Assembly (NCBI GenBank): GCA_017523995.1
Contig: JAFWUX010000003.1
Location: 1 to 57,150, forward strand
Source of the DNA: Oscillospiraceae bacterium
Lineage (GTDB): Bacteria; Bacillota_A; Clostridia; Oscillospirales; Ruminococcaceae
DNA length: 57,150 bases
Direction: 5' to 3'
Of this stretch, positions 5,258 to 54,617 are shown piece after piece (position 1 is the first letter of the stretch; each line of letters starts with the position of its first letter). The position numbers were made by a program, and so were the translations under genes. Under the pieces are notes generated by a model that searched no databases, was not told the DNA's origin, and saw nothing but the letters and a program-made list of their open reading frames with translations.

Positions 5258-5426
5258 TAGATTTCACATGGATTCTACGAATCTTATATAAACTATTGAT
5301 AAAATTTGTGCAATCAGACGAAATCCAAGGACAATATAAGGAATTTCAGACGCCGGAACGTAACTGTTTATGAAAGCAGCTTTCAGGGAAGCGCAAAACG
5401 CCTTTCCGGCAGATTGGAGAAAACAT

Positions 5427-5978
5427 ATGGAACAGGACGCTCAGATTTTCCGCCGGTATCTCGACGGAGACCAGACCGCGTTCGCTGAGATCATCGAGGC
5501 GTACCGCGATCCGGTCACATTCTTCATTCAGCGGTATGTGCATGATATCTGCACCGCTGAGGATCTCGCTGCGGATGTGTTTATGCAGCTTGTGGTCCAC
5601 CCGCAGAAGTACAACTTCAAATCATCACTGAAAACCTATCTGTTTGTGCTGGCGCGCAGCAGAGCGCTGGATTATCTGCGCAAACAGAAACGGCATCCGT
5701 CGGTTTCCATCGAGGATGAAGCCGAGGCGCTTGCCGATACGCAGGATCTTGAAGCGCATGTCCTGCAGAATGAGGAGCACCGCAGACTGCACGAGGCGAT
5801 CGGGCAGCTGCCGGAGCCGCAGCAGGTCGCTGTACATCTGGTATACTTCGAGGAGTATTCCTATGAGGATGCCGCGAAAATTATGAAGAAAACACGCAAG
5901 CAGATCGACAATCTGCTGTATCGCGCCAAGCAGGCGCTCCGAAGCCTGCTCGGAGAAAGGGGGGAGCAGACCGTATGA
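5427..5978 (+). CDS. ECF RNA polymerase sigma factor (serpin operon)
   Basis: A 183-aa sigma-70 family ECF protein with region 2 (FAEIIEAYRDPVTFFIQRYV, AEDLAADVFMQLVVHP, LARSRALDYLRKQKR) and region 4 (LPEPQQVAVHLVYFEEYSYEDAAKIMKKTRKQIDNLLYRAKQAL). The start at MEQDAQIF has GGAG 8 nt upstream; an in-frame ATG 19 codons earlier has no ribosome site. The stop overlaps the next gene's start by 4 nt (ATGA), the usual sigma/anti-sigma coupling. It heads an eight-gene same-strand unit whose gaps are all at most 24 nt, so it is likely to control the lipoproteins and serpins behind it. That control is inferred from gene order. Confidence 0.93.
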   Translation: MEQDAQIFRRYLDGDQTAFAEIIEAYRDPVTFFIQRYVHDICTAEDLAADVFMQLVVHPQKYNFKSSLKTYLFVLARSRALDYLRKQKRHPSVSIEDEAEALADTQDLEAHVLQNEEHRRLHEAIGQLPEPQQVAVHLVYFEEYSYEDAAKIMKKTRKQIDNLLYRAKQALRSLLGERGEQTV

Positions 5979-7105
5979 GAATGACAAACGAGGAGTTTCA
6001 GGCGGAGGTGTTCCGCCGCAGCAATGTCTATCTGCAGCAGAAAAAGCAGAATCACAGACGGTTCTTTTACGGCGCGGCTGCATTTGCGTGCTGCTTTGGA
6101 ATCGTCGCAAGCGGACTTGCGCTCAAGAGCAGAATGTACGGCGATCACGCGGCTTTTTCCAATCTGCTTGACAATGCAACAGCATCCGAGGCGGTAATGG
6201 AATCCAGTGAGAAATACCGTGAGGAGGAATCCTGCGAGGAAAATTCGGAGGCTGCTGACGAAGCGGTACAGGACGGCGCATCCCTGAATGCAAAACCGGG
6301 GCAGTACAAAGGTGATACTGAATATGCCAGCGAGGAAGAACAGTGGGAAAACCTCACTGCGGACGAATATTTCCGTGCACTGAATCTCAATCCGCTGCCG
6401 GAGACGCTCGGTCAGCTTCATCTGAATCAGATTCCTTCTGATATGCGCTTCAATCCCGACGAATACACAACCTATGACGAGGGCTGCTATTCCTTCACGT
6501 ACAGCGACGGAAACGGCAAGCCTGCGCTTCAGATCGAAATGCGCAGAAAGCAGGATTTTGAGCTGGAGTTTGAGCCTGATATCTATCCGGCGCATACGGA
6601 GGAAGAACTGGAATTTCCGACGCGCGCGTGCTTTGTCTCCGGTGAAGCACAGTTCTGGGTGATCGCTGCGGACTATGATACAAATGATACCGAACAGATC
6701 AGGGCGCTGGCGCAGGAGCTTTATGATGCACTGCGCGCGGATGAAATCCACGATCTGACCGCAGAAGAATACTTCCGCGCGCTGGGGATCAATCCGCTGC
6801 CGGAAACGCTCGGCGGCTGCACGCTGCAAGCCGAAACCGAGATGCATGATGTCGGCTTTTACAACCGGTTCACCTATCTGAATGCGGACGGGGAACCGGA
6901 AATGTATGTCGATATCTGCGACTCGAAGGGCTGGGCAACCAGCGACGGTGTCTATCTCTGGACAAGTGCCGGTGAGCCGACCACTGCCGAGTTTTCGGCA
7001 GGCAAGGCGAAAGTGGAGCTGAAAGCTGCACAGCTTGTAGAAGGCGACGCGGCTAAAATCGAAGAGCTCGCCGAAGAACTGATGCACACACTCCGGAAGG
7101 AGTAA
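5975..7105 (+). CDS. single-span membrane anti-sigma-like protein with two copies of an extracellular domain
   Basis: A 376-aa protein with a short charged cytoplasmic N-terminus (residues 1-30), one membrane span (about 31-50) and a long exterior. Two similar ~110-residue domains begin at LTADEYFRALNLNPLPETLG (about 127) and LTAEEYFRALGINPLPETLG (about 261), separated by acidic sequence. The same domain occurs once in the next gene's lipoprotein. No zinc-binding anti-sigma motif is present. The anti-sigma role is inferred from the 4-nt overlap with the ECF gene and the topology. The outer domain may be the sensor, perhaps able to interact with the matching lipoprotein. Confidence 0.88.
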   Translation: MRMTNEEFQAEVFRRSNVYLQQKKQNHRRFFYGAAAFACCFGIVASGLALKSRMYGDHAAFSNLLDNATASEAVMESSEKYREEESCEENSEAADEAVQDGASLNAKPGQYKGDTEYASEEEQWENLTADEYFRALNLNPLPETLGQLHLNQIPSDMRFNPDEYTTYDEGCYSFTYSDGNGKPALQIEMRRKQDFELEFEPDIYPAHTEEELEFPTRACFVSGEAQFWVIAADYDTNDTEQIRALAQELYDALRADEIHDLTAEEYFRALGINPLPETLGGCTLQAETEMHDVGFYNRFTYLNADGEPEMYVDICDSKGWATSDGVYLWTSAGEPTTAEFSAGKAKVELKAAQLVEGDAAKIEELAEELMHTLRKE

Positions 7106-7115
7106 GGAGAATATC

Positions 7116-7772
7116 ATGAAAAAATATGTTATCCTGCCGCTCGCGGCGCTGCTTCTGACAGGCTGCGGCGCGCAGAATCTCACACAGGATACTGCGGAGA
7201 ATGTCGCGGAGGAACAGGCATCTGCTGCGGCACAGGACGGCGCTGCTGTCACGGATTTTGCAGGCAGAACGGGATACATCGACGAAAACGGCATTTTTAT
7301 CCCCGATCCGAGCAACAGCGGCATATCGTCAGTCGAATCCGATGAAACACATACAGATACGGCGGAAGAACTGCCGCTCTTTACCACAGGTCCCTATGAC
7401 GCGGAGGAATGGCATGCGCTGAGCGCGGCGGAATACTTTGAAGCGCTCGGCATCCGCCCGATGCCCGATCCCTTTGATGAGCTGACGCTCGGATGGGATC
7501 CGGATGCAAAATTCGATATGCGGGGCCGCAATGCGTTCCTGTATTTCGATGAAACTGACAAAAAAGTGCTGACTGTCTACCTCAGCGCGGAATCGGAGTT
7601 TGAGCTAGAGGACGGTGAAATTCTGATTCATCATGCCGAGGACGGGCAGGCGGCGGATTTTCTCGCCGGAAAAGCGCATGTCACGGTGCTCGGCAGCGGC
7701 ATGACAACAAAGGATCTCGACACGCTCAAAACCTATGCGAAGGATCTGCAGAAATATCTCCCTTTACAGTGA
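7116..7772 (+). CDS. lipoprotein carrying the same domain as the anti-sigma-like protein
   Basis: A 218-aa lipoprotein with signal MKKYVILPLAALLLTGCG, lipid-attachment Cys17 and an AGGAG ribosome site. A low-complexity acidic linker runs to about residue 95. The rest is one copy of the domain starting LSAAEYFEALGIRPMPDPF, aligning with both copies in the upstream membrane protein (shared S/TAxEYFxALGIxPxP). It lies 10 nt after that gene. Because it shares the putative sensor's domain on the same membrane face, it could compete for a ligand or pair with the sensor. The biochemical function is unknown. Confidence 0.85.
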   Translation: MKKYVILPLAALLLTGCGAQNLTQDTAENVAEEQASAAAQDGAAVTDFAGRTGYIDENGIFIPDPSNSGISSVESDETHTDTAEELPLFTTGPYDAEEWHALSAAEYFEALGIRPMPDPFDELTLGWDPDAKFDMRGRNAFLYFDETDKKVLTVYLSAESEFELEDGEILIHHAEDGQAADFLAGKAHVTVLGSGMTTKDLDTLKTYAKDLQKYLPLQ

Positions 7773-7782
7773 GGTGATTGAT

Positions 7783-8616
7783 ATGAAAAAGCGCGTATTT
7801 GCATGCATTCTGCTCGCCGTGCTGCTGACCGGCTGCGGCGCGGATCCGCTCAGCTCGCGTGCTGACCATGTACCGCCGGAGAGCAGCGGCGCGGAGGCTC
7901 CGCTCGCGGCAGGCACAATGCCGCCGCCGGAGCAGATTGAGGGCATCACGCTCAAAGCAGAGCCGTTTACATATCCGTTTGATGTCAGCAGAATCACGCT
8001 GCTTGCAACCAATGATACGGACACGGATTTCAGTCTGCCGGAGACCTTCACGCTGTGGAATATCAATGAAATTGAACTCGAATATATCACCGACTATGTG
8101 CCCTACAAAGAGGGCGGCGATTACTTCAACGAGACCGCGCAGATCATTCCGGCGCATGAATCGGCGGAGGTGATACTCGATCTGGCAGCGCACTATGATC
8201 TGCCGCTGGAGCAGGAGGCTTCCGATTCGCTCTTTCGCGTGTCGATCGGCGGTCTCAGCGCGGATTTCACGCTCTCGCCCGAAGCGCCGGAGCCGGAACC
8301 GAAGGCGGAGATTCAGCTCGAAACCGAGCAGGAAAGCTATCCTGCCGGTACGGAGGAGATCACCGTGCGCATCACGAACACCGGCACGGAGAATTTCACT
8401 TTCAACAATGCACTGTTCCGCATCGAGCAGTTTTTTGAGGGCTCTGTCGCCGTGATCGCATACGAGGATCAGGTGACGGAGATCGGACGGACACTCGCGC
8501 CCGGTGAAAGCATTATGTGGCCGCTGCGGCTCGCTGAGTTTCACAATCTGAAGCTGGAGTCCGGTGAATATGCCGTGTATCTGGAAGGGAACGAGGCGCG
8601 CTTTACGGTAACATAA
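7783..8616 (+). CDS. lipoprotein with C-terminal Ig-like domain
   Basis: A 277-aa lipoprotein starting MKKRVFACILLAVLLTGCG (Cys19), with GAGGTG upstream; the longer frame from 7735 lacks a ribosome site and overlaps the previous gene. Residues from about 45 to 165 form a beta-rich region (SRITLLATNDTDTDFSLPETFTLWNINEIELEY). The last ~100 residues have the bacterial Ig-like pattern (ESYPAGTEEITVRITNTGTENF, then LAPGESIMWPLRLAEF). Such modules stand off or bind other surface molecules. The gene lies 10 nt after its neighbour and 13 nt before the first serpin, so it is part of the same unit. Confidence 0.85.
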   Translation: MKKRVFACILLAVLLTGCGADPLSSRADHVPPESSGAEAPLAAGTMPPPEQIEGITLKAEPFTYPFDVSRITLLATNDTDTDFSLPETFTLWNINEIELEYITDYVPYKEGGDYFNETAQIIPAHESAEVILDLAAHYDLPLEQEASDSLFRVSIGGLSADFTLSPEAPEPEPKAEIQLETEQESYPAGTEEITVRITNTGTENFTFNNALFRIEQFFEGSVAVIAYEDQVTEIGRTLAPGESIMWPLRLAEFHNLKLESGEYAVYLEGNEARFTVT

Positions 8617-8629
8617 GGGAGGAATCATC

Positions 8630-9850
8630 ATGAAACAACAATTTACAGCAATTCTGGCTTCCTGTTTGCTGCTCGGCATCCTGACCGGATGTGGTGATCC
8701 GGTACAGCAGCAGGCGGCAGATGTCATTAAAGCAAAGCCGGCACCTGTTTCCGAAGCGGCAGAGGCGCAAACTGCGTTTGCGCTGAATCTTGTGCAGCAG
8801 GCATATCAGAGCGATCCGGAGCAGAATGTCCTGCTCTCGCCCTATTCCGCGATGCAGGCGCTCGCCATGACCGCAAACGGCGCTGCCTATCAGACACGCA
8901 CCGAAATGGAGCAGGCACTCGGCGGCATTCCGCTGGATTCGCTCAATGCTTCGCTGAGAGATCTGCGCAACACACTGACGGAATCTAAGAAAGCCACATT
9001 TCAATCTGCAAATGCCGTCTGGGTGAATGACCCTGACCGGAAGATTGTGCTGAATCAGAATTTTGAACAGATGGTCACGAACGGTTACAATGCAAAGATT
9101 TCAGCCGGTGCCTTCGATGACGCAGCGCGGAATGATATCAATGCATGGTGTCGGGAGAACACCGGCGGCATGATTCCGGAAATCCTGAACACTGCCATTT
9201 CGCCGGAAACCGCAATGATTCTGCTCAATGCCGCATACTTCGACGGCAAATGGGAGGAGGCGTTTGCAGACGTCAGAAGCGGATATGATTTTACCTGCGC
9301 TGACCGCCAAGTGCAGTCTGTCAGCATGATGATAAATGAGGAAAAATATTATCTGGAAGGCGAGGGTATCAAGGGCTTCGTCAAATACTATCAGGGCGGC
9401 GACTTTGCCTTTGCTGCGATTCTGCCCGATGCTGACTTGCAGTCCTATCTTCCTTCGCTGACGGCGGAGAATCTGCGCGCGCTGCTGCTGCATGTCAAAA
9501 CTGCGAGCACACCGTTTATAGTTGTGCTGCCGCAGTTCAGGCTCGATTGCAGCACCGATCTTGCACCGCTGCTCAAAAATATGGGCATGGCGTCAGCATT
9601 CGATCAGAGCACTGCGGATTTCTCCGGTATGCTGGAAAATGATACACCGCTCTGGATCAGCAAGGTGCAGCAGCGCGTCTATATTGATGTCAACCGGAAA
9701 GGCACGGCTGCCGCAGCCGCAACAGAGGTAGAAGTGGAAAGCTGTGAACCCAGAGAGATCGTCTTTGACCGCCCGTTCCTCTACATGATTATTGAGACGA
9801 AAAATATGACGCCGCTTTATGCAGGCGTTCTCAATGCAGTACCGCAATAA
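8630..9850 (+). CDS. serpin 1, surface lipoprotein serine protease inhibitor
   Basis: A 406-aa serpin with lipobox ILTGC (Cys21). Family motifs are NVLLSPYSAMQALAMTANGA, TRTEMEQALGG, NAAYFDGKWEEAF and the C-terminal DRPFLYMIIETKNMTPLYAGVL. The reactive-centre hinge KGTAAAAATEVEVE has the small residues at P12-P9 that loop insertion, and hence inhibition, require. Counting 14 residues on from the P15 Gly gives P1-P1' as Cys-Glu (in VESCEPRE), though a one-residue shift is possible. Serpins trap serine or cysteine proteases as covalent complexes. Lipid anchoring puts this one on the outer membrane face. It is the first of four tandem paralogues. Confidence 0.95.
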   Translation: MKQQFTAILASCLLLGILTGCGDPVQQQAADVIKAKPAPVSEAAEAQTAFALNLVQQAYQSDPEQNVLLSPYSAMQALAMTANGAAYQTRTEMEQALGGIPLDSLNASLRDLRNTLTESKKATFQSANAVWVNDPDRKIVLNQNFEQMVTNGYNAKISAGAFDDAARNDINAWCRENTGGMIPEILNTAISPETAMILLNAAYFDGKWEEAFADVRSGYDFTCADRQVQSVSMMINEEKYYLEGEGIKGFVKYYQGGDFAFAAILPDADLQSYLPSLTAENLRALLLHVKTASTPFIVVLPQFRLDCSTDLAPLLKNMGMASAFDQSTADFSGMLENDTPLWISKVQQRVYIDVNRKGTAAAAATEVEVESCEPREIVFDRPFLYMIIETKNMTPLYAGVLNAVPQ

Positions 9851-9870
9851 CATCAAAGGAGTATACATAT

Positions 9871-11148
9871 ATGAAAACCAACAGAGTTTTCGCATCCGTT
9901 CTTGCATCCATGCTGCTTTGCAGCGCACTGACCGCATGCGGCAATATCCAGACTGTACAGCCTGCGGTACAGGCTGCCGATCCTGCCGCGGAGATCAAGC
10001 CGCAGCAGGTTTCCGGCATGGAACCGGATGAAACCTTTATCAACGCGCAGACCGGCTTTGCGCTCAATCTCCTGCGCGAAACTGCCTTGGCAGAAGCAGG
10101 AAAAAATATCCTGATCTCGCCGGAATCGGTGATGCAGGCGCTTGCCATGACCGCAAACGGCGCTGCAAATCAGACGCTTTCCGAAATGGAACAGGCGCTC
10201 GGCGGCATTCCCGTCAATACGCTGAATGAATATCTCTATACGCAGAGAACCGCCATTCCGGAGAACGAAAACTGCAAATTCAAAATGGCAAATTCGATCT
10301 GGGTGCGCGATGATGCGGACAGAATCAAGCTCGATCCGGCATTCCTGCAGAAGAATGCGAACTACTACGCGGCGAATGCGTTTCTTGCGCCGTTTGACGA
10401 ATCCACACGCCTTGATATCAACAACTGGTGCAGCGAACGGACAAACAACATGATCCCCGAAATGCTCACCGAACCCATCTCGCCCGATACTGTAATGTAT
10501 CTCGTCAACGCGGTGTGCTTCGAGGCGAAGTGGGAAAAGGTCTATGAGGAGGAGCCTGCGCCGCAGAATTTCCATGCGGCAAACGGTACCGAGCAGACCG
10601 CACAGATGATGTATTCGGAGGAGCACACCTATCTTTCCGATGCGCACGCGACCGGATTCCTGAAAAACTATCAGGGCGGAAAATACGCATTTGCGGCGAT
10701 TCTCCCTGAGGAGGGCATGACGCCGGAGCAGTATCTCGCGGATTTGCAGCCCGAGGCGCTCCATGCCATGCTTGCAAATGCGGAGCAGGCAGCCGTGCAG
10801 GCAGCTCTGCCGCAGTTCAGCTATGACTATAAAAATGAGCTTTCCGGTGTGCTGAGCAGCATGGGCATGCCTTCTGCATTCGATGTGTTCAGCGCGGATT
10901 TTTCCGGCATGACCGGCTCGCAGAATCAGCTTTTCATCAACCGCGTGCTGCATAAAACACATATCGACGTCGATACTGAGGGCACAAAGGCGGCGGCTGT
11001 CACCGCAGTTGAAGTGAACGATGAATGTGCTGCCGAGATGCCGGATGATCTGAAATATGTTATCCTTGACCGCCCGTTTGTCTATCTGATCGTCGATACC
11101 GAGACGATGCTGCCAGTCTTCTCCGGTGTGCTGAACGAGATCCCCTGA
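9871..11148 (+). CDS. serpin 2, surface lipoprotein
   Basis: A 425-aa serpin with signal and lipobox SALTAC (Cys23). Motifs are NILISPESVMQALAMTANGA, EMEQALGGIPVNTLN, LVNAVCFEAKWEKVY, and DRPFVYLIVDTETMLPVFSGVL near the end. The hinge EGTKAAAVTAVEV is compatible with an inhibitory serpin. The exposed loop is long and acidic (NDECAAEMPDD), about six residues longer than in serpin 1. By count from the hinge Gly, P1-P1' falls at Glu-Cys. An acidic P1 would suit a Glu-specific protease better than a trypsin-like one. The gene lies 20 nt after serpin 1, and its closest relatives in the window are serpins 1 and 4. Confidence 0.95.
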   Translation: MKTNRVFASVLASMLLCSALTACGNIQTVQPAVQAADPAAEIKPQQVSGMEPDETFINAQTGFALNLLRETALAEAGKNILISPESVMQALAMTANGAANQTLSEMEQALGGIPVNTLNEYLYTQRTAIPENENCKFKMANSIWVRDDADRIKLDPAFLQKNANYYAANAFLAPFDESTRLDINNWCSERTNNMIPEMLTEPISPDTVMYLVNAVCFEAKWEKVYEEEPAPQNFHAANGTEQTAQMMYSEEHTYLSDAHATGFLKNYQGGKYAFAAILPEEGMTPEQYLADLQPEALHAMLANAEQAAVQAALPQFSYDYKNELSGVLSSMGMPSAFDVFSADFSGMTGSQNQLFINRVLHKTHIDVDTEGTKAAAVTAVEVNDECAAEMPDDLKYVILDRPFVYLIVDTETMLPVFSGVLNEIP

Positions 11149-11172
11149 ATCAAAACGAAGGAGCCTTGATCC

Positions 11173-12273
11173 ATGAAAATACGCTGTCTGGCTGCCGCGC
11201 TTTCTGCGGCGATCCTGATGACTGCCTGCGGAACCTCCGCTGAACTGACAAAGAATGTAAAGCCGCTTGATATCGCGCCGGTTGACGGCACGCCGGAATT
11301 CCGCAATGCACAGATGCAGTTTACCGTCTCACTGCTGCAAAAGGCGGCGGAGCAGAATGACGGGAATCTGCTGCTCTCGCCCTATCTTGCGGCGTCGCAG
11401 TGGCTGACCGCTGCGGATGAAAGCATCACGGCGCCGGAGATTTTCGGCGGCATGGCGCGCGCAGAGCTCAACGGCAGTATGGTCAAGTGGCGCGGGACGC
11501 TGGCAGTGCTGCAGAAAGCACAGTCGCTCTGGATTGCGCCGGAGCAGCGCAGCAGCCTGAAGCCGGATTATCTCCGCTTCTGTCTCGGGCTGAGCGGCAC
11601 GCAGGTCTTTGCGGCAGAGCGGACACCGGCGGCGCTGAATCAATGGGTTTCGGAGGCGACAGGCGGTGCCGTGAGTGAAATCACCGCGCCGCAGAATGCA
11701 GATGCCGCCATGCTCGGCGCGCTCTCCTATGCGCTGACATGGAGCAGCCCCTACGGCGACAATGAAATCCGGAATGTGCTGTTTTACAATGCGGACGGCA
11801 GTCAGAAATCCGCGCCGTTCCTCTGCAAGGATGCGGACAGCGTGATGTATCTGGAGGATGAAGCCGTCACCGGCATGCGCAAGGACTGCGACGGAAATCA
11901 GCTTGCATTTGTTGCGGTGATGCCGAAAAGCGGCACGGTCGATTCGCTGCTGCAGAATCTGACGGCGGAGCAGCTCTCCGATTACATCAGCTTCGGCGTG
12001 CAGCAGACCATGCGGACACAGTTCCCGCAGTTCAATGCGGATGATACGCAGGATATCGCGGCGCTGCTCCCTGAGACCGGCTGCGGCACGATCATCCAGC
12101 ATGTCTGCACGGAAATCGGCAAGGGCACGCAGAAGGCGACATTCTCCATGCAGATCGGGGATGGTGAATCATCCAAAACGGAGCTCGTGTTCGATCATCC
12201 CTTTGCCTTTTTTGTGGTGGACCGGTATTACGGTCTGCCGCTGATCGCGGGCACGGTCGAGCAGCTTTCGTAA
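11173..12273 (+). CDS. serpin 3, shortened and divergent paralogue (possibly non-inhibitory)
   Basis: A 366-aa lipoprotein (LMTAC, Cys19) with a recognisable serpin framework: NLLLSPYLAASQWL, FAFFVVDRYYGLPLIAGTV, and a DHPF motif before the last strand. It is 40-60 residues shorter than its neighbours and lacks the MTANGA helix motif. Its hinge reads KGTQKATFSMQIG, with Lys, Thr and Phe where small residues are needed at P12-P9. Bulky hinge residues usually abolish inhibition and give storage, carrier or chaperone-like serpins. The exposed loop is GDGESSKTE. It lies between two apparently competent paralogues with intact reading frame and ribosome site, so it is retained rather than a pseudogene. 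Confidence 0.88.
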   Translation: MKIRCLAAALSAAILMTACGTSAELTKNVKPLDIAPVDGTPEFRNAQMQFTVSLLQKAAEQNDGNLLLSPYLAASQWLTAADESITAPEIFGGMARAELNGSMVKWRGTLAVLQKAQSLWIAPEQRSSLKPDYLRFCLGLSGTQVFAAERTPAALNQWVSEATGGAVSEITAPQNADAAMLGALSYALTWSSPYGDNEIRNVLFYNADGSQKSAPFLCKDADSVMYLEDEAVTGMRKDCDGNQLAFVAVMPKSGTVDSLLQNLTAEQLSDYISFGVQQTMRTQFPQFNADDTQDIAALLPETGCGTIIQHVCTEIGKGTQKATFSMQIGDGESSKTELVFDHPFAFFVVDRYYGLPLIAGTVEQLS

Positions 12274-12288
12274 TGTGAGGCGGATATC

Positions 12289-13530
12289 ATGGGAAAACAG
12301 AAATACAGCGCGCTGCTGCTCTCTGCACTGCTGCTGACAGGCTGCGGTGCGGCAAAGACTCCGGCGCAGACACCGGCGATCCCCGCTGCGGATATGATGC
12401 AGCTGGATGCAGAGGGCAAAGAAGCGGATGCCGGATTCTCGATGGCGCAGTACCGGTTTGCACTGGAGCTTCTGCGGAATGTCCAGCGTGCAAAGGGGCA
12501 GACGAATGTCATGGTCTCGCCCTATTCCGTGATGCAGGCGCTCTCTATGACCGCAAACGGCGCCGCCAATCAGACGCGCACGGAAATGGAGCAGGTGCTC
12601 GGAAACGGCATCTCTGTCAACGATCTGAACAAGTATCTCTATACATGGCGCACGGAGCAGCCGGAAAGCGATGCGTGCAGACTCCATACGGCAAACGGCA
12701 TCTGGATCAACCGTGAGGTCGAGCAGATCAATAATCTCTTTGCAGAGCAGGTGCGCAATTTCTATGCGGCTGAGATCCGGAAGCGTGCGTTCGATCAGAA
12801 AACGCTCAGGGAGATCAACGGCTTTGTCAAAAAGGAGACAGACGGCATGATCCCCGACATCCTCAAGCAGCTTGAACTGGATGCGACGGCGGTGCTTGTC
12901 AACGCGGTCGGCTTTGAGAGCAGGTGGGCGGTTCCCTATGAGAAGGACAAGGTTTGTGACGGCATCTTCCGGAATGCGGACGGCAGTGAATCAACCGTGC
13001 AGATGATGACCGGCTCGGAATCCGATTATCTGGAATCGGAGGGTGCGGTCGGATTTCTGCGTGATTATGACGGACAGTATGCGTTTGCGGGCATTCTGCC
13101 GCCGGAGGATGTCTCCGTGCAGGCATGGCTCGATGCGCAGACGCCTGAGGATCTGATCGCGATGGTGGCAGGGCGCACGGATACTTCCGTCACATCGGTC
13201 ATGCCGGCATTTACGGCGGATACCGATGTGCATCTCGAGGAGATTCTGCCGGAGATGGGCATGCAGTCGGCGTTCAGCGGGGCTGCGGATTTCTCCTGCC
13301 TTTCCGATACACCCATGAAGATCGACGAGGTTATTCACAAGACGCATATCGAGGTTGATGAGAAGGGCACGAAAGCGGCTGCCGCGACCGCTGTCGTCAT
13401 GCAGAAGAATGATGCTGAAATGCTCGGCACGGAGAAAACCGTCCGGCTCGACCGTCCGTTTGTGTATTTGATCCTTGATATGAACAATGAGCTGCCTGTC
13501 TTTATCGGGACTGTGCAGACGCTTGCATAA
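12289..13530 (+). CDS. serpin 4, surface lipoprotein
   Basis: A 413-aa serpin lipoprotein (LLLTGC, Cys19) with NVMVSPYSVMQALSMTANGA, TRTEMEQVLGNG, VNAVGFESRWAVPYE, and DRPFVYLILDMNNELPVFIGTV. The hinge EKGTKAAAATAVVM is the best consensus hinge of the four, predicting an active inhibitor. The loop continues QKNDAEMLGTEK; by count P1-P1' is about Asn-Asp, leaving Lys13 and Met18 as alternative cleavage points. It is the last gene of the sigma-led unit, 15 nt after serpin 3, and ends 41 nt before a strong terminator shared with the convergent subtilase gene. Confidence 0.95.
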   Translation: MGKQKYSALLLSALLLTGCGAAKTPAQTPAIPAADMMQLDAEGKEADAGFSMAQYRFALELLRNVQRAKGQTNVMVSPYSVMQALSMTANGAANQTRTEMEQVLGNGISVNDLNKYLYTWRTEQPESDACRLHTANGIWINREVEQINNLFAEQVRNFYAAEIRKRAFDQKTLREINGFVKKETDGMIPDILKQLELDATAVLVNAVGFESRWAVPYEKDKVCDGIFRNADGSESTVQMMTGSESDYLESEGAVGFLRDYDGQYAFAGILPPEDVSVQAWLDAQTPEDLIAMVAGRTDTSVTSVMPAFTADTDVHLEEILPEMGMQSAFSGAADFSCLSDTPMKIDEVIHKTHIEVDEKGTKAAAATAVVMQKNDAEMLGTEKTVRLDRPFVYLILDMNNELPVFIGTVQTLA

Positions 13531-13570: not shown

Positions 13571-13608
13571 AAAACCGCTCCGGTCATGTTGAACCGGAGC
13601 GGCTTTTT
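13571..13608. terminator. bidirectional rho-independent terminator between the serpin operon and subtilase
   Basis: A perfect 10-bp stem, CCGCTCCGGT (13575-13584) with ACCGGAGCGG (13593-13602), is flanked by AAAA on the left and TTTTT on the right. It can therefore stop transcription from both sides. Confidence 0.95.
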
Positions 13609-13623
13609 CTGCTTGTATGCGTT

Positions 13624-16600
13624 TTAGAGTGTGATGAGCTTGACAATTGCCTGCAGCAGGCTGAATACATCGTTATGGGTGAGTGTGAGGTTATAATCAC
13701 AATCGGCGTTTGCCTTGCCCTCGGCGGAGATGACCGCAGTCCGGTCCTCTGCAAGCAGGCGCGCAAGCAGCACGGCATCCGAAACATCCACGGAGCCGTC
13801 GCAGTTGACATCGCCGCGCTTCGACAGCACAGGGGTGAGGCTGCCTGTTGCGGGGTCTGCCAGATACTTCGCGATGAGATCCGATTGGAGCGTCTGCACG
13901 ATCACCAGCACCTGCCCGTCACTCCGCAGGATCGGGATGGCATCCATGACATTTGTTTCGTCTCTGCCGCATGCTTCTGCTGCCTTATCGCAAAGCTCCC
14001 GCAGCGTAAAGGCGGCATTCTGCGGCATTTTCAGCGGCTTTAACAGATTGCCCTGATTGCCGTTCTGATCGGTGACATCCAGCGTGAACGGATCAATCGT
14101 CAGCACAAATATATAGTAGTAGTCGCCGGTGTAGCGCCTCTTGTAAATATATTTTCCGTTGTCGGGATTGTAATCCATGCGCTGTTCCTGCGGCAGGCTG
14201 AGTCCGCTGTATGCATTGATATATGCTGTTGCCAGATCGCAGATTTCATCCGTCGGGCGGAGCGCTGCGAGCTTTTCAGAATCATCTGTGATCAGCTCCA
14301 GCTCCCATTTGTAAAGAACGGAGTTCGGCGCAAAGCTGATGACGGGTTTTCCGGTTGTCAGATCGCGCGTGACACTGCCGTGCTGCGTTTTGTTGAGATA
14401 CTCCATCGTGAAGTTGCCGTTTTCGTCGAGTGTATAGGTGAACGGTGTATCATTGAAACCGAGTTCCGCGATGGTTCCGGGGTTGACAATCGTACCGGTT
14501 TTGCCGTCTTTGTTAAACAGCAGCAGGGCATTAAGGTGCTTGATATCATACAGACCTGCCGGAATCTCTGTGAGATACTGCTGGAGCAGTTCGACATTAC
14601 GGTGTTCGACATCCGTATTTCCTTTTTCGTCGCGCTGCCTGTAGAGAAAAGCGGTTCCCTGACCGTCGAAGATGCTGACATCGTATCGCTCTGAAAGCTG
14701 CAGACCGGATTCGGTCTCATATTCCAGCAGGAATGAGAGTTCGCCCCGGAAAATGCCTGCATCTTTCAGGGCAGGAAGGGGTGTGTTCTGCGTTTTCGCG
14801 CCTTCTTTTTTGGCTGCCTCGATCAGCTGATTCGCGGGAATAAACTTCCTGCCTTCATATTGCATCTGCAGAATCTTCGAGGAGACGAGTTCCGCATATG
14901 TCTTGCTGTCCGTATCTTCCAGCTGATAGTTGGTGTCAGCATATGCACGGACGCTGCAGTGTTTTGTTTCACTGCCGGAGACAAGCGTCAGGTCGCTGCC
15001 CTTTGCTGTATAGGTATAGGTTGTCTCGGAGCCGTCCCAGAAGCTTGTGAATGTGATATCCTTTTCGCCGATCACATAGATGCCGTTTTTCTCATCCACC
15101 CAGCAGCCGGTTTTGCGGACAAGCTCCTCTGCGGCGTTGTCATCAGAGCGGATTTCAACAAAGTTATAAGCCTCGTCCAGAACGGTGAAAGAATAGTTTT
15201 TCAGATCGGTGATATCATATTTCACGTTCCAGACGTCCTTCTGATCGGGCTCCGGTGCGAGCACATCCGCAAAGTTGTAATACTGACCCTCCTCGCGATT
15301 TGCGATATCCGAATACTTGCGGAGCACATAGGGAAGCGTGCCGATGTTTTCATATTCTTTTCCTGTCAGCACGGTTCCGCTGCCATTTGAATAGGCAAAG
15401 AGGATATTGGCAAAATTCACCTGTTCGATCAGCTGCTGCTTGCCGCCCGGCTGATAGACACCGGCCTGACCGCCGGCGCCGCTGCCGACCACCGCAAGAC
15501 CCTGCAGCTTTCCGTTATCGGATGCCGTGATCTCCAGATAGGTTCTGCCTTTTTCCGCTGTGATTTTATGCGTGACCTTCGGCGCCTGTCTGTCGATGTG
15601 AACCGTCTCGCTGAATACCTGCGGATGCTCCTCGGAGCCGGGATATGCGATCCATCTTTTTGTTGTGTATTTGTAATCGCCTTCCTCCAGCACATCAAAC
15701 GGGATATCGAAGGCTTCGCCGTATTTCTGCTGATAGAGAACTGTTCCGTCTGCAGCATCCAGCTCGTGTAAAGATTTGTATGTTCCGCGTCTGCAGCTGT
15801 AGAAATAGGTGCCGGTGATGCAGTCGGCGATGCTGTCTTTGTTCGGGGAGATCCAGCACTCCTCCGGAATGGCGTTCAGCTGTGCCTTTTCTTCCTCTGT
15901 TCCGTAGGTTTCGGCAAGGAAAAAGCCTGTTTTCTCGTCGATCTTTTTGAGCTCGTCGATCGGCGCATGTGCAAGAATCTGTTTGTAGATCAGTCCTTTT
16001 TGAATCAGAGAGGACGGAACGGCATCCGTATTGGCGCCGAGCTGGATCAGGACGCTGTCCATTTCCGGATCAAAGATCGGGAGCTGTGCCCAGTCGCCGT
16101 GGTAGCCGAGCAGCGGGATCGAGATATCCGCGCTGTTCTCCGCACCGGAGAGCAGCACATAGCCTTCTGTAAAGAAGCCGTATTTGAACAGCTTTTCCAG
16201 ATCGCGGCACTGTGCAGCATCCAGCGTGACGCTGATTTTGACGGTTCTGCTTTCTCCTGCGGCAACTGTGACCGGACCGCTGAAATCCGTTGTGCACTTG
16301 AGCTTCTGCTGACCGCCGGTTCTGTCGCAGTTCAGCTCGTTGTCATAGTAGGTGCCGTCGGTTGTCAGGCAGACATCCGCCTGTTTGAAGGTCACATCCT
16401 CGCTGCCGGAATTGGTCAGCGTGACATGGAAGCTGAAGCTGTCGCCGAGCTTGTCAAACAGATTGATCTTTGCATCGCCGGTTTCACCGCTCATCAGCAC
16501 CTTTGCGTTCAGTGCCCTGTCCAGCGCAACCAGACCGGCGCCCTGCCGTCTCGGTGTGACAAATACGCCGTTCTCCTGATAGGGGACTGCGGTATTCATC

Positions 16601-18450
16601 ATCAGGCGGCGGAGATAGGAGGCAAACTCCGCACCGGAAAGTTTGATATCCTGCTTTTCGAGATATTCGCGGAGCACCGCCGTGCAGCCTGCAACATAGG
16701 GCGAGGACATGGATGTTCCGGATGCGGTCATCGTGCCGCCGTCATATGCGGCAGAGCGCACACTTCCGCCGATGCCCATGATATCGGGGCGCAGATCCAG
16801 AGACTGTTTGACGCCCCAAGCGGTATAAGAGCTGACGCGCTCTTTGACATCGCGCAGGGCCTTTTCGCCGGAAACGGAAATGTACTTCTTTTCCGCATTG
16901 CGCAGCACCTGACCGTCTTCATACGAGACGCCGCTGACCCAGATTCCGGATTCGGAATAGATGTAGTCCATGCCGTCCGGTTTCTCCTTGTCGATCAGGA
17001 GCAGTCCGGCGGCGTTTTTCTGAATCGCGCGCTCTGCAATGTCGGCGGTTTTGAACGAGGTGCGCTGTACCAGTGCGATGCGGTCCTGCAGATCCCCGAT
17101 TTCATCAAACTCCGCCTGCGATCCGTTGCCGCAGTCTGCATAGGAATAATCGCCCGGCTGCAGGACATCGGAAAGAAAGTAGGTTGAACCGTTGTTGTTG
17201 ATCATCGGGATGAGCACCATTTTTCTGTCCTCGTGGCGGATCACGCCGAACTCTGCCGGACCGACATTGTTCGCGGAGGCAACCAGCAGGATCGGGGAAC
17301 CGAGCTCCGCTTTGTCACAGATCATGCCGGTATCGGGATTTTCGGGAATTGTTACAATGCCCCATGAATAAGCGCCGTTATCCGCATTGCCGGCAGAGTT
17401 GCAGATGATGACACCGGCACGGTCTGCGGCTGCGACGGCTTCTGAGACCGGATTTTCGCCCCAGTATTCGATGGCGTCTGCGCCCCAGCTCATGTTGATG
17501 ACATCGGCATGCAGTTTGACGGCGTCCTCGATTGCGGCAAGTCCGGCATCTGCGTTGATGTGACCGCCGTTTGCGCAGACACCGAAGAACATCAGCTGTG
17601 CATCCTTTGCAATGCCGGAGAGCGTTGTACCGTCGCTGTCCGTGAAGGTGTTTCCTGCCGCAATGCCGCTGACATGCGTGCCGTGATATTCATACGGGTT
17701 TGAGATTCCCTCATAGGGATTGTCAGGGTTCGCGTAGTTCATGACATAGGGCAGCTTACTGCTGATGTAGGAGCGGTCTGCATCCGCCTTCACATTCAGT
17801 GTGCCGCTGCTGATGACTTTCTCGATATCTTCCTTGCTGACCGCTGTTTCGATGTCATCCGCAAGCGGTTTGAACATCGGGTGCGTGACATCCAGCTCCG
17901 AGTCAATGACCGCGATGACCTGTCCCTCGCCGGAGCAGCCGGTCTCCGCATGAAATGCAGGGAATCCGCTGAACGCAGCCGCACGGTTCATCTGCGGCAC
18001 GGCGATGTCCGCGGTCTCCGTCACGCTGACGACGTCCGGGAGTGCGCGCACACGTTCGATCAGGTTTGCGGGCAGCTTGCAGCTGAATCCGTTGTAGAGC
18101 GCGCTGTAGCTGAATCCGACCTGCAGCGCCGGATAAAACTGCCGGATGCGCTCCTGCACAGCCTGCTGCTGTTTTTCGTACTGCGCTGTCAGCTCTGCCG
18201 CCCGTTCTGTTTCCAGAAAACCGGCGCCCTGCCCGAGTGCCTCGGGCTGTGCCATGAGCGCGTCGCCCGTGATCTTGACAATGACTGTAACGGGTTCGCT
18301 GCTGTCACTTTGCTGCGCGGGGACATCAGCGGCTGCGGGCGGTGCTGTCTGTGCAGATGCCCGCGGGATGCCTGCCCCGCAGACAGCAGACCATGACATG
18401 ACGGCTGCCGCTGCAAGACAGAGCGCTTTGACTGGGATGTTGTGCTTCAA
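13624..18450 (-). CDS. secreted S8 subtilisin-like protease with C-terminal dockerin
   Basis: A 1,608-aa exported protease starting at TTG (18450) with AAAGGA upstream. The signal peptide is residues 1-33 and an inhibitor-like propeptide follows (about 50-150). The catalytic triad is Asp183 (AVIDSELDVTHP), His256 (YHGTHVSGIAAG) and Ser580 (ASGTSMSSPYVAG), with oxyanion Asn355 (NSAGN). A PA-like insertion (about 400-530) sits before the Ser, and an Fn3-like domain follows the catalytic domain, as in lactocepin/C5a-peptidase types. A long beta-rich stretch leads to a type I dockerin (RGDVNCDGSVDVSDAVLLARLL, second repeat NADCDYNLTLTHNDVF), which would dock the enzyme on a scaffoldin. It is convergent with the serpin operon. 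Confidence 0.95.
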   Translation of the reverse strand: MKHNIPVKALCLAAAAVMSWSAVCGAGIPRASAQTAPPAAADVPAQQSDSSEPVTVIVKITGDALMAQPEALGQGAGFLETERAAELTAQYEKQQQAVQERIRQFYPALQVGFSYSALYNGFSCKLPANLIERVRALPDVVSVTETADIAVPQMNRAAAFSGFPAFHAETGCSGEGQVIAVIDSELDVTHPMFKPLADDIETAVSKEDIEKVISSGTLNVKADADRSYISSKLPYVMNYANPDNPYEGISNPYEYHGTHVSGIAAGNTFTDSDGTTLSGIAKDAQLMFFGVCANGGHINADAGLAAIEDAVKLHADVINMSWGADAIEYWGENPVSEAVAAADRAGVIICNSAGNADNGAYSWGIVTIPENPDTGMICDKAELGSPILLVASANNVGPAEFGVIRHEDRKMVLIPMINNNGSTYFLSDVLQPGDYSYADCGNGSQAEFDEIGDLQDRIALVQRTSFKTADIAERAIQKNAAGLLLIDKEKPDGMDYIYSESGIWVSGVSYEDGQVLRNAEKKYISVSGEKALRDVKERVSSYTAWGVKQSLDLRPDIMGIGGSVRSAAYDGGTMTASGTSMSSPYVAGCTAVLREYLEKQDIKLSGAEFASYLRRLMMNTAVPYQENGVFVTPRRQGAGLVALDRALNAKVLMSGETGDAKINLFDKLGDSFSFHVTLTNSGSEDVTFKQADVCLTTDGTYYDNELNCDRTGGQQKLKCTTDFSGPVTVAAGESRTVKISVTLDAAQCRDLEKLFKYGFFTEGYVLLSGAENSADISIPLLGYHGDWAQLPIFDPEMDSVLIQLGANTDAVPSSLIQKGLIYKQILAHAPIDELKKIDEKTGFFLAETYGTEEEKAQLNAIPEECWISPNKDSIADCITGTYFYSCRRGTYKSLHELDAADGTVLYQQKYGEAFDIPFDVLEEGDYKYTTKRWIAYPGSEEHPQVFSETVHIDRQAPKVTHKITAEKGRTYLEITASDNGKLQGLAVVGSGAGGQAGVYQPGGKQQLIEQVNFANILFAYSNGSGTVLTGKEYENIGTLPYVLRKYSDIANREEGQYYNFADVLAPEPDQKDVWNVKYDITDLKNYSFTVLDEAYNFVEIRSDDNAAEELVRKTGCWVDEKNGIYVIGEKDITFTSFWDGSETTYTYTAKGSDLTLVSGSETKHCSVRAYADTNYQLEDTDSKTYAELVSSKILQMQYEGRKFIPANQLIEAAKKEGAKTQNTPLPALKDAGIFRGELSFLLEYETESGLQLSERYDVSIFDGQGTAFLYRQRDEKGNTDVEHRNVELLQQYLTEIPAGLYDIKHLNALLLFNKDGKTGTIVNPGTIAELGFNDTPFTYTLDENGNFTMEYLNKTQHGSVTRDLTTGKPVISFAPNSVLYKWELELITDDSEKLAALRPTDEICDLATAYINAYSGLSLPQEQRMDYNPDNGKYIYKRRYTGDYYYIFVLTIDPFTLDVTDQNGNQGNLLKPLKMPQNAAFTLRELCDKAAEACGRDETNVMDAIPILRSDGQVLVIVQTLQSDLIAKYLADPATGSLTPVLSKRGDVNCDGSVDVSDAVLLARLLAEDRTAVISAEGKANADCDYNLTLTHNDVFSLLQAIVKLITL

Positions 18451-20949: not shown

Positions 20950-21051
20950 TCGCTTATCTGAAATTTTTTCCGGAATCTGTGACCTGTTCCGGACAATTCG
21001 AGTCGTATTAGATAGAGGACCTCAATCCATAACATGAAAGGGGCGACGGAC

Positions 21052-21618
21052 ATGGCAATATTCAGTGATGCCGAGCTGCTGACGCTGTTCAATTCGCGCG
21101 ATCAGGCGGCACTCTCGGCGACGGAAAAACAATACGGCAAACTCTGCCTCTGCATCGCCGATCATATTCTCGGCTGCCGCGAGGATGCGGAGGAGTGCGT
21201 CAATGATGCGCTGATGAAGCTCTGGAACAGCATCCCGCCGGAGCAGCCGCGCAGCTTTGCAGCATATCTCAGCGTGATTGTGCGCAATCTTGCATGCACG
21301 CGGCGGACTGCTGCACAGACAAAGAAACGGGGCGGCGGCGAATTCACGGTCGCCCTCTCGGAGATCGAGGATACACTTGCCGCACCGGAGCATCCGGAGG
21401 CGGTGCTCGATACCATTGCAATCGGCGATGCGTTGAACCGCTTTCTCGATACGCTGCCCGCGGAGACAAACGCGATGTTTGTCATGCGCTACTGGAGCGA
21501 CATGAGCATCAAAGAAATCGCGGCGCGCTGCGGCAAAAGTCAGAGCAAAGTGAAAATGACGCTGCTGCGCACGCGCAATGCGCTGAAAGCCTTTTTGGAA
21601 CAGGAGGGTCTACGATGA
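21052..21618 (+). CDS. ECF RNA polymerase sigma factor
   Basis: A 188-aa ECF sigma factor with region 2 (SATEKQYGKLCLCIADHILGCREDAEECVNDALMKLWNSIPP) and region 4 (LPAETNAMFVMRYWSDMSIKEIAARCGKSQSKVKMTLLRTRNALKAFL). The start at MAIFSDAELL is chosen because AAGGGG precedes it; ATG at 21034 is in frame but poorly spaced. It closely resembles the sigma factors at 33957-34550 and 54618-55175, especially the EDAEExVNDxxxxxWxSIPPxxP stretch. Its stop overlaps the start of the membrane protein behind it (ATGA). Upstream sequence 20960-21015 contains TGTGACC and CGTATTA, but their 19-nt spacing is unusual for an ECF promoter. Confidence 0.93.
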   Translation: MAIFSDAELLTLFNSRDQAALSATEKQYGKLCLCIADHILGCREDAEECVNDALMKLWNSIPPEQPRSFAAYLSVIVRNLACTRRTAAQTKKRGGGEFTVALSEIEDTLAAPEHPEAVLDTIAIGDALNRFLDTLPAETNAMFVMRYWSDMSIKEIAARCGKSQSKVKMTLLRTRNALKAFLEQEGLR

Positions 21619-24092
21619 AGGAACAGGATTACATCCGGATCATGGATCGCATCCGGAACGATCATATCGAAAACGCAATGCTCTGGGATGTTTCGGCTCA
21701 GCAGCAGAACCGGCGCTCGATCCGGCGGCTGAGTCTCGGCGTCGGCGCAATTGCGGCATGTATTGCAGTTGTGATCGGCTGCATCGGATACAGTGTTCAC
21801 CGTGAGCATCTTGCGAATCCGTCCGGCGAGACAAGCGGCGCGGAGAACGGAGATCAGCTCAATCTCTTTGGCGGACACGGCGAAATCAAATGCACACTCG
21901 GAAATGACAGCAGCATCCTTTACAGCGACGATGAATACTATTATTTCCCGACGAACATCGGCGCCGCACAGGAAGATGCAGCGGTCGGGGGGCCCTCTCC
22001 GGATTCGTTTTCGTATCTCCGCTGGGAGAAAGAGGGCGGCTCCGTCTGCGAGCAGCGCACCTATGAAGGCATCCTGCTGAGCGACGGCGAACAGCTCTAT
22101 ACCTATCATGACGGGCAGCTTTTCATCACGGACAGCCGCGGCAATGAGACATTCTTCTCCGGTGTGCCGTGGAAGCCCTGCCGCATTCAGAAGCTCGGCG
22201 ATGACTGGTATTTGCTCTCCGCCTTTCTTGAGGATTCGTGGATTGACGGTCATCCGCAGCCCTATCTGTTTCTGGATAAGCCGGGCGAAGGCATCTATCA
22301 GCAATACGGCAATTACGGCGATGTCCGTTCGGACGGCAAGGGTGATACGGTCTACTTCCGCTCGGAAAATCAGATTTACAGCGCCCCGCGCAAATCTCCG
22401 AATCAGAAGACCTTGCTTGCAGATGCCGGTGATGCGCCCGATGCGATCGCGGACTGGACCGTTGACGAAAACAATCTGTATTATATCGCCGTTTCGGACG
22501 GCAGCGTGTGGTATCGCATGAAACCGCTTGATCTCGACACACAGGAGCAGTCTTGGGAATGCATGTATCCGGATTTGTCCGGCACGGATAAACAGAGCCT
22601 CCGCGATGCGGATGATTCCGAATTGCCGACACGTCTGTGGAACTACTACTATTTCAATGATGGGCAAAATCAGAGGCTTTTCACGGTCACATATACCTAC
22701 CGTGCTGATGTACCGGAGTTTCAGGTTTATTCCACCGGCAGCCCGATCTTTCCGCCCGGTATCTCCTCCGCGATGTGGTATCGGTATTCTGTCACCGCGG
22801 CGGAACTCTGGGGCGATCATCTGCCGGATCCGGATGTGCGCCTGGACATGACATTCTTTGAGACGGACGAACACTTCATCTTCACGCTGCCGCAGGAAGG
22901 CATGCACGGCGAACAGATCGTGCAGCTCCAAAAGAGTACGCAGGACTGCCGCTATCTCGGCGTGAATTATGTGCAGCAGGAGACAAAACCGCAGGAGACC
23001 GAATCACAGGAAACAAAACCGCAGGAAACTGAACCTGCGGACATCACAAATGCTGCATCCGATCTCAACGCGCTCGGCGGAAAGGGAAAGCTCCGCAGCT
23101 ACGATCCATATAGCCTGAACTATCTTGGAAGTTCCGAAATCGCAGAAGATGATGAATATATCTATTATTATACCTATGGTGTGCGCGCCCGCAAAACCGG
23201 CGGCGATACGGTATTTGAACCGCTGAATCTGCCGCAGATTCCGCAGTACAATCCGGATCCTGAAGCAGGACGAAACCTTTATGTCTCAGACGGCTTGGTT
23301 CTGCTTACAGATAACAATGCACTGATTGCGGTGCATCCGGACGGCACGCAGACTGTTCTTCTCTCCGATCTCGGAACGTATGATATCATCGGCTTCATCC
23401 ATGATGCATCCGGCAACCCTGCCAGACTCATCCTGAACAATTACACGCAGGTGAACGATTCTATCGTAGTTCTGGATCTTGAAACCGGAACACTCCGTCA
23501 GAAGCATACCACTAATTATTCATTTAACGATTGGAAATTCGTTGACGGGAAACTTTATGCGATCGGGTGGAATACGGGCAAACATTCATGGGACACAGAC
23601 TCAGATTCTCTTAATTTTGAATTGTTCCGATTTGATGAAGACGGAACCCCCATTCAGGTCAGTACACCGGAATGGAAAATTGCCTCAATCTATACGGTAA
23701 TAATTGAAGACAACGAAACAATCTGGTTCCGCAATTTAGATGAGGAGCCGTGCAGAGGCAATTTGCTGGATCGTTCTGTCACTGTCGTTTCAGAGGACGA
23801 ATACAGCAAACACGGCATGATTCCGGGTACCGCACGTTCTGTCTATCTGAATATGCTTGATTCAGATGCAAAGAAGATTATATTCCTGAATCATGAAACC
23901 TCCGGCGAGCAAATCCTGAAAGAATTCAATAATCCGGAATGGGAGATCGTCATCCAGGGTTTTTATGTCGAAAACGGCGTCATCCATATTGCTGTCAGCG
24001 CGCATGAATACGAGTCGGAAAAGCTCGTCAGTCTGACCGTATTTACGATTGACGGCGACAAGATTTCCTCCTATGAGATCACCGCACCGTGA
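21615..24092 (+). CDS. membrane anti-sigma-like protein with two beta-propeller-like halves
   Basis: An 825-aa protein with a 36-residue cytoplasmic N-terminus (MKEQDYIRIMDRIRND), one membrane span (about 38-58) and a large exterior. The exterior has two halves rich in short beta repeats (DDEYYYFPTN, ENNLYYIAVSDGSVWYR; then EDDEYIYYYTYG, DGKLYAIGWN, DNETIWFRN), suggesting beta-propellers. They are joined by a low-complexity KPQETESQETKPQETEP linker near residue 460. The 4-nt overlap with the ECF gene implies an anti-sigma role with an extracellular sensor. A frame continuing upstream of the ATG to 21294 is an overlap with the sigma gene, not coding. The ligand is unknown. Confidence 0.9.
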   Translation: MKEQDYIRIMDRIRNDHIENAMLWDVSAQQQNRRSIRRLSLGVGAIAACIAVVIGCIGYSVHREHLANPSGETSGAENGDQLNLFGGHGEIKCTLGNDSSILYSDDEYYYFPTNIGAAQEDAAVGGPSPDSFSYLRWEKEGGSVCEQRTYEGILLSDGEQLYTYHDGQLFITDSRGNETFFSGVPWKPCRIQKLGDDWYLLSAFLEDSWIDGHPQPYLFLDKPGEGIYQQYGNYGDVRSDGKGDTVYFRSENQIYSAPRKSPNQKTLLADAGDAPDAIADWTVDENNLYYIAVSDGSVWYRMKPLDLDTQEQSWECMYPDLSGTDKQSLRDADDSELPTRLWNYYYFNDGQNQRLFTVTYTYRADVPEFQVYSTGSPIFPPGISSAMWYRYSVTAAELWGDHLPDPDVRLDMTFFETDEHFIFTLPQEGMHGEQIVQLQKSTQDCRYLGVNYVQQETKPQETESQETKPQETEPADITNAASDLNALGGKGKLRSYDPYSLNYLGSSEIAEDDEYIYYYTYGVRARKTGGDTVFEPLNLPQIPQYNPDPEAGRNLYVSDGLVLLTDNNALIAVHPDGTQTVLLSDLGTYDIIGFIHDASGNPARLILNNYTQVNDSIVVLDLETGTLRQKHTTNYSFNDWKFVDGKLYAIGWNTGKHSWDTDSDSLNFELFRFDEDGTPIQVSTPEWKIASIYTVIIEDNETIWFRNLDEEPCRGNLLDRSVTVVSEDEYSKHGMIPGTARSVYLNMLDSDAKKIIFLNHETSGEQILKEFNNPEWEIVIQGFYVENGVIHIAVSAHEYESEKLVSLTVFTIDGDKISSYEITAP

Positions 24093-34688: not shown

Positions 34689-34905
34689 TAGTATTCAGAT
34701 TGAAAATATGATAAAATAATTACAACAATGGGGATCGCTGGATTCCGGCGCTCCTTTGTCTGATGTGTATTCCGGAAAGGAGCGAAAGCGATGATGATAC
34801 GGCAGGTGATGCGGATGTGTGTACACCGTACAGCGGAATGACCGTTTGAACAATCAAGGATGAAACAGCCCATAAAAATCTATTTTGAAGGCGAGGTACA
34901 GACTT

Positions 34906-54589: not shown

Positions 54590-54617
54590 TCAGTTGAACG
54601 TAAGGAGGTGGCGCACG

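Follow-up and report, generated by a model that had tools for sequence, protein, structure and literature searches.

Why should an extracytoplasmic function (ECF) sigma factor stand at the head of a row of serpin genes, and what would it respond to? The question is raised by a 57,150-nucleotide (nt) stretch of DNA from an Oscillospiraceae bacterium (contig JAFWUX010000003.1), here called the window, in which eight plus-strand genes follow each other head to tail between positions 5427 and 13530: an ECF sigma gene, an anti-sigma-like gene, two lipoprotein genes and four serpin genes (S1-S4). With a dedicated ECF/anti-sigma module of this kind one can ask directly when serpins are produced and what they are aimed at, the candidate attackers of gut and rumen bacteria being host digestive and immune proteases and the proteases of neighbours. 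We think that the cluster may encode an autoregulated cell-surface protease-defence circuit in which serpins are the output and, in relatives, also the input, and we give this reading a probability of about one half. The strongest clue to the signal is a set of genes in related genomes in which a serpin is fused to an anti-sigma-like segment.

The sigma-serpin gene cluster

Direct reading and Pfam scans bear out the eight genes, their order and their common strand as described in the first-pass annotation. The cluster and its flanking signals are as follows.

5336..5362, plus strand: predicted ECF promoter ATAAGGA-N16-CGTA, the sole match to this pattern in the window
5371..5385, plus strand: 15-bp palindrome TGAAAGCAGCTTTCA at the predicted mRNA 5' end, 8 nt past the promoter motif
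5427..5978, plus strand: ECF sigma factor, 183 amino acids (aa), alternative start at 5370; Pfam Sigma70_r2 50.3 bits, Sigma70_r4_2 46.6 bits
5975..7105, plus strand: putative transmembrane anti-sigma factor with a conserved N-terminus, overlapping the sigma gene by 4 nt
7116..7772, plus strand: lipoprotein 1, lipobox C17, a third copy of the anti-sigma ectodomain
7783..8616, plus strand: lipoprotein 2, lipobox, Big_14 Ig-like domain (Pfam PF20251, 54.5 bits)
8630..9850, plus strand: serpin S1, lipoprotein; PF00079 283 bits, inhibitory-type hinge GTAAAAAT, Cys in the loop
9871..11148, plus strand: serpin S2, lipoprotein; PF00079 278 bits, inhibitory-type hinge GTKAAAVT, loop NDEC
11173..12273, plus strand: serpin S3, lipoprotein, degenerate; PF00079 95 bits, hinge broken
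12289..13530, plus strand: serpin S4, lipoprotein; PF00079 265 bits, inhibitory-type hinge GTKAAAAT
13575..13602, plus strand: candidate Rho-independent terminator, a 10-pair stem with 8 G-C pairs followed by a T run

The intergenic distances, read 5' to 3', are -4, 10, 10, 13, 20, 24 and 15 nt, in agreement with the earlier figure of at most 24 nt. All four serpins score above the PF00079 cut-off of 27 bits, and a lipobox is found by pattern in all six genes from 7116 to 13530, that is, the two lipoproteins and S1-S4, so that lipidation is predicted for each and the claim of four lipobox-bearing paralogues holds. The sigma factor carries Sigma-70 regions 2 and 4, has a size that fits the roughly 180-200 aa of the ECF group, and is 62-96% identical to 12 relatives.

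ECF promoters typically combine a GGAA-type -35 element with a CGT-type -10 element, and both are present in the predicted site at 5336-5362 upstream of the sigma factor's own operon. A match to this pattern arises in 2 of 100 shuffled sequences. Before the sigma gene, ATAAGGA-N16/17-CGTA occurs in 12 of 14 clade I loci, the window counted, while the remaining two have GTAAGGA (L003) or a diverged sequence (L013). The motif suggests that the operon may be autoregulated by its own sigma factor. The terminator after S4 is the best plus-strand candidate between 4500 and 15000, a region with 10 terminator-like candidates in total against 10.5 in shuffles.

The serpins might instead be mere neighbours of the sigma gene, read from internal promoters of their own and not regulated by it. 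In the same region, 18 promoter-like sites on both strands compare with 7.8 in shuffles, some of them within the cluster, and a terminator-like site (8412-8431, 7 pairs), the best internal one on the plus strand, lies inside lipoprotein 2. This site is weak, however, and the plus-strand internal promoter-like sites are 9-of-12 matches, all in coding sequence; together with gaps of at most 24 nt, the 4-nt overlap and a gene order kept across genomes, this makes the absence of shared control very improbable. Since the gaps are tiny, the promoter before the sigma gene is conserved, a strong terminator follows S4 and the internal sites are weak, the whole cluster is likely to be a single transcription unit.

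The palindrome TGAAAGCAGCTTTCA is found exactly in 11 of 51 related loci, always at the sigma start, and in 9 of 11 whole genomes it occurs exactly once, again always at that place. An altered version is present in L004, and in L009 its arms are separated by a long hairpin. A role as an RNA hairpin was considered and rejected, as only some of the leaders can fold into a small hairpin.

Recurrence of the arrangement

The arrangement is not unique to the source genome; it is part of a broader association of sigma factors with serpins. The 51 loci (L numbers) were gathered by serpin similarity, and the gene order, for which a search of related genomes had been proposed, recurs in L001, L002 and L003 with sigma, anti-sigma and S1-S4 all in place; L002 is without the two separate lipoproteins. 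A tree of 48 serpins contains orthologous groups that span the window and these three loci, with support of 100/100 for S1 and S3, 100/99 for S4, and for S2 98/88 with three genomes and 83/40 once L003 is added. Pairwise ratios of nonsynonymous to synonymous substitution (dN/dS) are 0.06-0.09 for the sigma factor, 0.24-0.30 for the anti-sigma protein and the lipoproteins, 0.18-0.34 for S1, S2 and S4, and 0.27-0.48 for S3. As the order is kept, orthology is tree-supported and dN/dS lies between 0.06 and 0.48, the layout is not a product of chance.

A sigma/anti-sigma pair of one of two related groups, then lipoproteins where present, then serpins, is the order in 21 of the 51 loci: a close sigma factor (>240 bits) lies upstream of the serpins on the same strand in 13, and one of a second group (119-137 bits) in 8. 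In fifteen further loci a sigma-like gene of more distant kinship (19-34 bits) lies immediately behind the serpin, and in the 14 displayed a putative anti-sigma gene comes next; two of these distant sigmas were scanned with Pfam and both have sigma regions 2 and 4. No sigma gene adjoins the serpin in the other 15, in some cases because the contig ends. In L004, a metagenome-assembled genome, a serpin gene is broken by a stop (9283-9807 and 9826-10605), possibly through decay or an assembly error.

The association was also assessed across the family to which genome G003 belongs. Serpins were found at E 1e-10 in 75 of 297 genomes, and 94 serpin regions from 74 genomes were analysed after exclusion of four serpin fragments, each at the end of a contig, of which G295 contributed two and G206 and G251 one apiece; some regions equal or nearly equal the earlier loci, for example L079 = L003, L068 = L005, L065 = L011 and L070 = L020. 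A same-strand ECF gene lies within 4 kb in 31 of the 94 regions. Near serpins, 33 ECF genes were counted in 815 kb, against one in 535 kb farther off in the same regions. The Pfam density of eight genomes (114 PF08281 matches in ~22.4 Mb) leads to an expectation of ~4.15, for which the Poisson P is about 5e-19, with regions that are not all independent; the density of the window's kin (156 PF08281 matches in four genomes, ~13.9 Mb) leads to ~9. Pfam recognised sigma regions 2 and 4 in every one of ten ECF genes scanned from the serpin regions. The idea that bacterial serpins are usually single genes has to be softened here, as two or more serpins occur in 14 of the 94 regions and four in one; the genome of L013 holds four more in tandem (G009:C56:3774-11568, open frames of 530-636 aa).

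Several points weigh against a special tie between these sigma factors and serpins. ECF genes abound in the window's kin, with 32-45 PF08281 matches in each of four genomes, sigma factors that neighbour serpins had served as seeds of the ECF search model, and some of the 94 regions are near-duplicates (L081, L082, L085 and L091 are alike); some adjacency is therefore expected by chance. Moreover, in 63 of the 94 regions, some of which stop at contig ends, the 4-kb range holds no ECF gene on the same strand, and G011 has two sigma relatives above 215 bits and no serpin was found in it. In favour of a tie, 7 of the 8 places with a relative of the sigma factor at 230 bits or above adjoin a serpin; the clade I sigma search returned 67 places, mostly weaker relatives away from serpins. 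Both counts concern the best 5-11 candidates per genome.

The putative anti-sigma protein and its possible signal

The product of 5975-7105 has no match at the cut-offs used in scans of Pfam and NCBIfam, their anti-sigma domains included. Its gene directly follows the sigma gene, hydropathy places one membrane helix near residue 30, and the predicted topology gives it a cytosolic N-terminus, highly conserved among 12 aligned relatives, and an ectodomain. In the AlphaFold model residues 14-122 have a predicted local distance difference test score (pLDDT) below 50, and the model also contains a pair of alpha/beta domains that resemble each other and are for the most part predicted with confidence, so that the predicted layout comprises a short cytosolic N-terminus, the membrane helix, an acidic low-confidence linker and two repeat ectodomains. 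Lipoprotein 1 matches this protein in phmmer at 65 and 37 bits. By its position and architecture the protein may bind the sigma factor. The earlier claim that an extracellular signal switches on the serpins thus stands as the natural reading of a membrane anti-sigma factor; the signal itself and the control by sigma are parts of it that we infer.

In 8 of the 94 regions (L115, L116, L118, L120, L128, L131, L136 and L144), a single gene that overlaps an ECF gene, by 8 nt in one of the eight and by 4 nt otherwise, encodes in succession an N-terminus of anti-sigma-like type, a membrane helix (near residue 30-37) and a serpin. Seven of the fusion proteins match PF00079, while the eighth, in L144, runs off its contig. 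At the N-terminus the fusion proteins are similar to anti-sigma-like proteins without a serpin from the same set, such as those in L098, L135 and L138. A profile search found 1002 homologues at E 1e-20. Among the 120 of them that were listed, 111 have the fusion-type architecture by hydropathy, 6 are lipoprotein-like and 3 have a signal-peptide-like start; the N-terminus of one, P0114, is of the window's anti-sigma type. A hinge pattern is present in 116 of the 120; P14 is Cys in 91 of these and Val in 25, and 115 of the 116 have Thr at P8. A preceding ECF gene is established for the eight fusions only, because the listed homologues come without genomic context. In some relatives, a serpin appears to be the ectodomain, and so the sensor, of an anti-sigma factor, which suggests that an attack by proteases is detected by these bacteria and countered with inhibitors.

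How the window's circuit could work may be outlined as follows. Through its short cytosolic N-terminus, the anti-sigma protein would keep the sigma factor at the membrane, while on the outside it would expose its long acidic linker and the sensor domains related to lipoprotein 1. Extracellular proteases attacking the surface would cut or unfold this sensor, membrane proteolysis would follow and free the sigma factor, and the latter would transcribe its own operon from ATAAGGA-N16-CGTA. The cell would thereby be coated with three inhibitory lipoprotein serpins that differ in their bait loops and with one degenerate serpin. Once the protease is trapped, the response would end, so that the circuit would act as a negative feedback loop. 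The part of the sensor would in relatives be played by the serpin itself, fused to the anti-sigma-like segment. What the sequences show of all this is the gene order and its conservation, the conserved promoter, the orthology of the genes, the association with ECF genes and the fusions; co-transcription, sigma binding, regulated proteolysis, the protease signal and the inhibition of target proteases belong to the proposed model.

A wider reading, to which we hold only tentatively, is that a family of ECF pathways in gut Clostridia employs serpins to receive signals: upon protease attack, the serpin ectodomain of the anti-sigma factor would pass the conformational change of a suicide inhibitor across the membrane, and the window's operon would represent a branch in which the serpins are lipoproteins on the output side and the regulon provides a protective coat for the surface. 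Serpin-bearing anti-sigma factors, should their function match their appearance, would be protease-triggered conformational receptors and might be put to use as live protease sensors. No receptors of this kind appeared among the listed matches in open-licence papers.

General envelope stress would account for the cluster differently. Candidate RseB-like domains of the anti-sigma protein and of lipoprotein 1 would sense damage to lipoproteins or the envelope, the serpins would be one of several lipoprotein outputs, and proteases would not be the signal. The window's anti-sigma ectodomain, which is no serpin, speaks on that side and against protease sensing: its best structural matches are the envelope-stress sensors RseB and MucB, and these matches are weak. 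E. coli RpoE/RseA/RseB and Pseudomonas MucA/MucB resemble the window in having a membrane anti-sigma factor, and a further possible resemblance lies in the window's ectodomain, which may be like the C-terminal part of RseB and recurs in a separate lipoprotein; they differ from it in that here the domain lies within the anti-sigma protein itself and serpins are the neighbours.

The candidate regulon also speaks against protease sensing. The promoter pattern has 40 matches in ten operon-bearing genomes (9 at the sigma gene, 31 elsewhere), against 60 for a reversed-pattern control. Because 40 is not above this control, the genome-wide count was discarded as evidence and the position before lipoprotein genes was used instead. 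Reading covered 28 of the 31 sites away from sigma, leaving aside 3 of one repeated sequence and the sites of the reversed control. Twelve of the 28 lie 24-107 nt before a same-strand lipoprotein gene, with 10 of these lipoproteins flagged by script and 2 (L146, L150) called by eye. The first 8 sites, chosen by eye as promoter-like, all precede lipoproteins, as do 4 of the other 20, which were read as a check. The products are short lipoproteins (L146, L150, L151, L152 and L160, with no Pfam match in the three scanned, L151, L152 and L160), YfbK-like VWA lipoproteins (L147, L148), a second VWA group (L149, L153, L167, L172) and a DUF4349 lipoprotein (L171), and they have no known link to proteases. 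L153 has a weak match to the MG3 domain of bacterial alpha-2-macroglobulin (E 4e-4, below the cut-off). We favour the protease-defence circuit and regard envelope stress with passenger serpins as rather unlikely.

The SigI/RsgI systems of Clostridium thermocellum, in which anti-sigma factors sense carbohydrates, are similar at the level of architecture, as a membrane anti-sigma factor with an exchangeable extracellular sensor is paired with a sigma gene. In the available portions of these papers, the sensors are carbohydrate-binding modules, glycoside hydrolase or PA14-like modules (PMC3413522, PMC12484212). The window's anti-sigma protein matches no Pfam family. Three further ECF sigma-like genes of the window (21034-21618, plus; 33957-34550, minus; 54594-55175, plus) are each followed, with 4-nt overlaps, by predicted membrane anti-sigma-like genes (21615-24092, plus; 32683-33960, minus; 55172-56968, plus), none of which gave a convincing Pfam match.

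The four serpins and their known relatives

The hinge of inhibitory serpins is described, in the part of the source available to us, as made of small residues in an ExGTEAAAA-like sequence (PMC8233489). S1, S2 and S4 have inhibitory-type hinges and bait loops that differ from one another, and by hinge type they are probably inhibitory serpins. By alpha-1-antitrypsin numbering, P1 is presumably Cys in S1 and Glu, then Cys, in S2. The hinge of S3, GTQKATFS, is not of the inhibitory type, and it is degenerate also in the orthologues of L001-L003; about 23 residues are missing ahead of the reactive loop. Because of this gap and the broken hinge, there are probably three inhibitors only, and the part of the first-pass annotation that saw a coat of four was too strong. 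The stem branch of S3 has 2.37 changes per site, and its dN/dS of 0.27-0.48 indicates that the gene is kept. Its AlphaFold model (pLDDT 87, predicted template modelling score 0.85, loop 320-334 below 50) matches solved serpins, best tengpin (E 2.5e-26), with the miropin structure 5ncs also among the matches. S3 is thus probably a folded, non-inhibitory serpin.

Whether the sigma factor might answer plant polysaccharides or feeding cues, with serpins shielding enzymes of the surface or the cellulosome from proteases made by the cell itself or by its neighbours, is a question raised by related serpins. Dockerins were found in all three clade II serpins scanned with Pfam, most of the displayed members of this clade have no lipobox, and cellulosomal serpins have been proposed to protect the complex, according to the accessible text of PMC5301203. 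A subtilase gene convergent with the operon (13624-18450, minus strand) encodes 1608 aa, in which PA and Fn3_5 domains are accompanied by a dockerin-like end of borderline score. Against this, S1-S4 have no dockerin match in Pfam at E 0.01, by which dockerin anchoring of the window's serpins was ruled out, and the anti-sigma protein matches no carbohydrate-binding family in Pfam. The subtilase was dropped as a partner of the serpins because it does not adjoin the operon in L001, L002 or L003, the contig of L001 stopping soon after the cluster. We consider such a role in substrate use improbable. A dockerin protein lies directly upstream of a long serpin in L028 (6983-8938), L029 (3058-5004), L037 (6907-8871) and L051 (6824-8884); Pfam gives dockerin alone in the three scanned (L028, L029, L051).

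As the first-pass annotation had supposed, no sigma/anti-sigma/serpin arrangement was found among the listed matches in open-licence literature. Miropin of Tannerella forsythia is a lipoprotein and, like the window's serpins, a bacterial surface serpin; we know of no ECF sigma/anti-sigma pair reported for it. Like the window's serpins in family, inhibitory-type hinge and origin from gut or cellulolytic Clostridia are the cellulosomal serpins, namely PinA of C. thermocellum and the Doc-Serpin of R. flavefaciens (PMC5301203, PMC3573020), and the siropins of Eubacterium siraeum (PMC5127057). Consecutive locus tags, Cthe_0190 and Cthe_0191, are given for cellulosomal serpins in PMC3990059. As far as the available parts of these papers go, the window differs in having lipoprotein serpins that lack a dockerin and form a tandem of four downstream of an ECF sigma gene. 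The serpin of Bifidobacterium breve is induced by protease through a two-component system, as the available part of PMC8012564 describes; it shares with the window a serpin output next to a dedicated regulator, the protease inducer being reported there and suggested here, but it is a single serpin under a two-component system, whereas the window has an ECF sigma/anti-sigma pair and several lipoprotein serpins. Farther along the window, a single open frame of 3234 residues occupies 34885-44589 on the plus strand.

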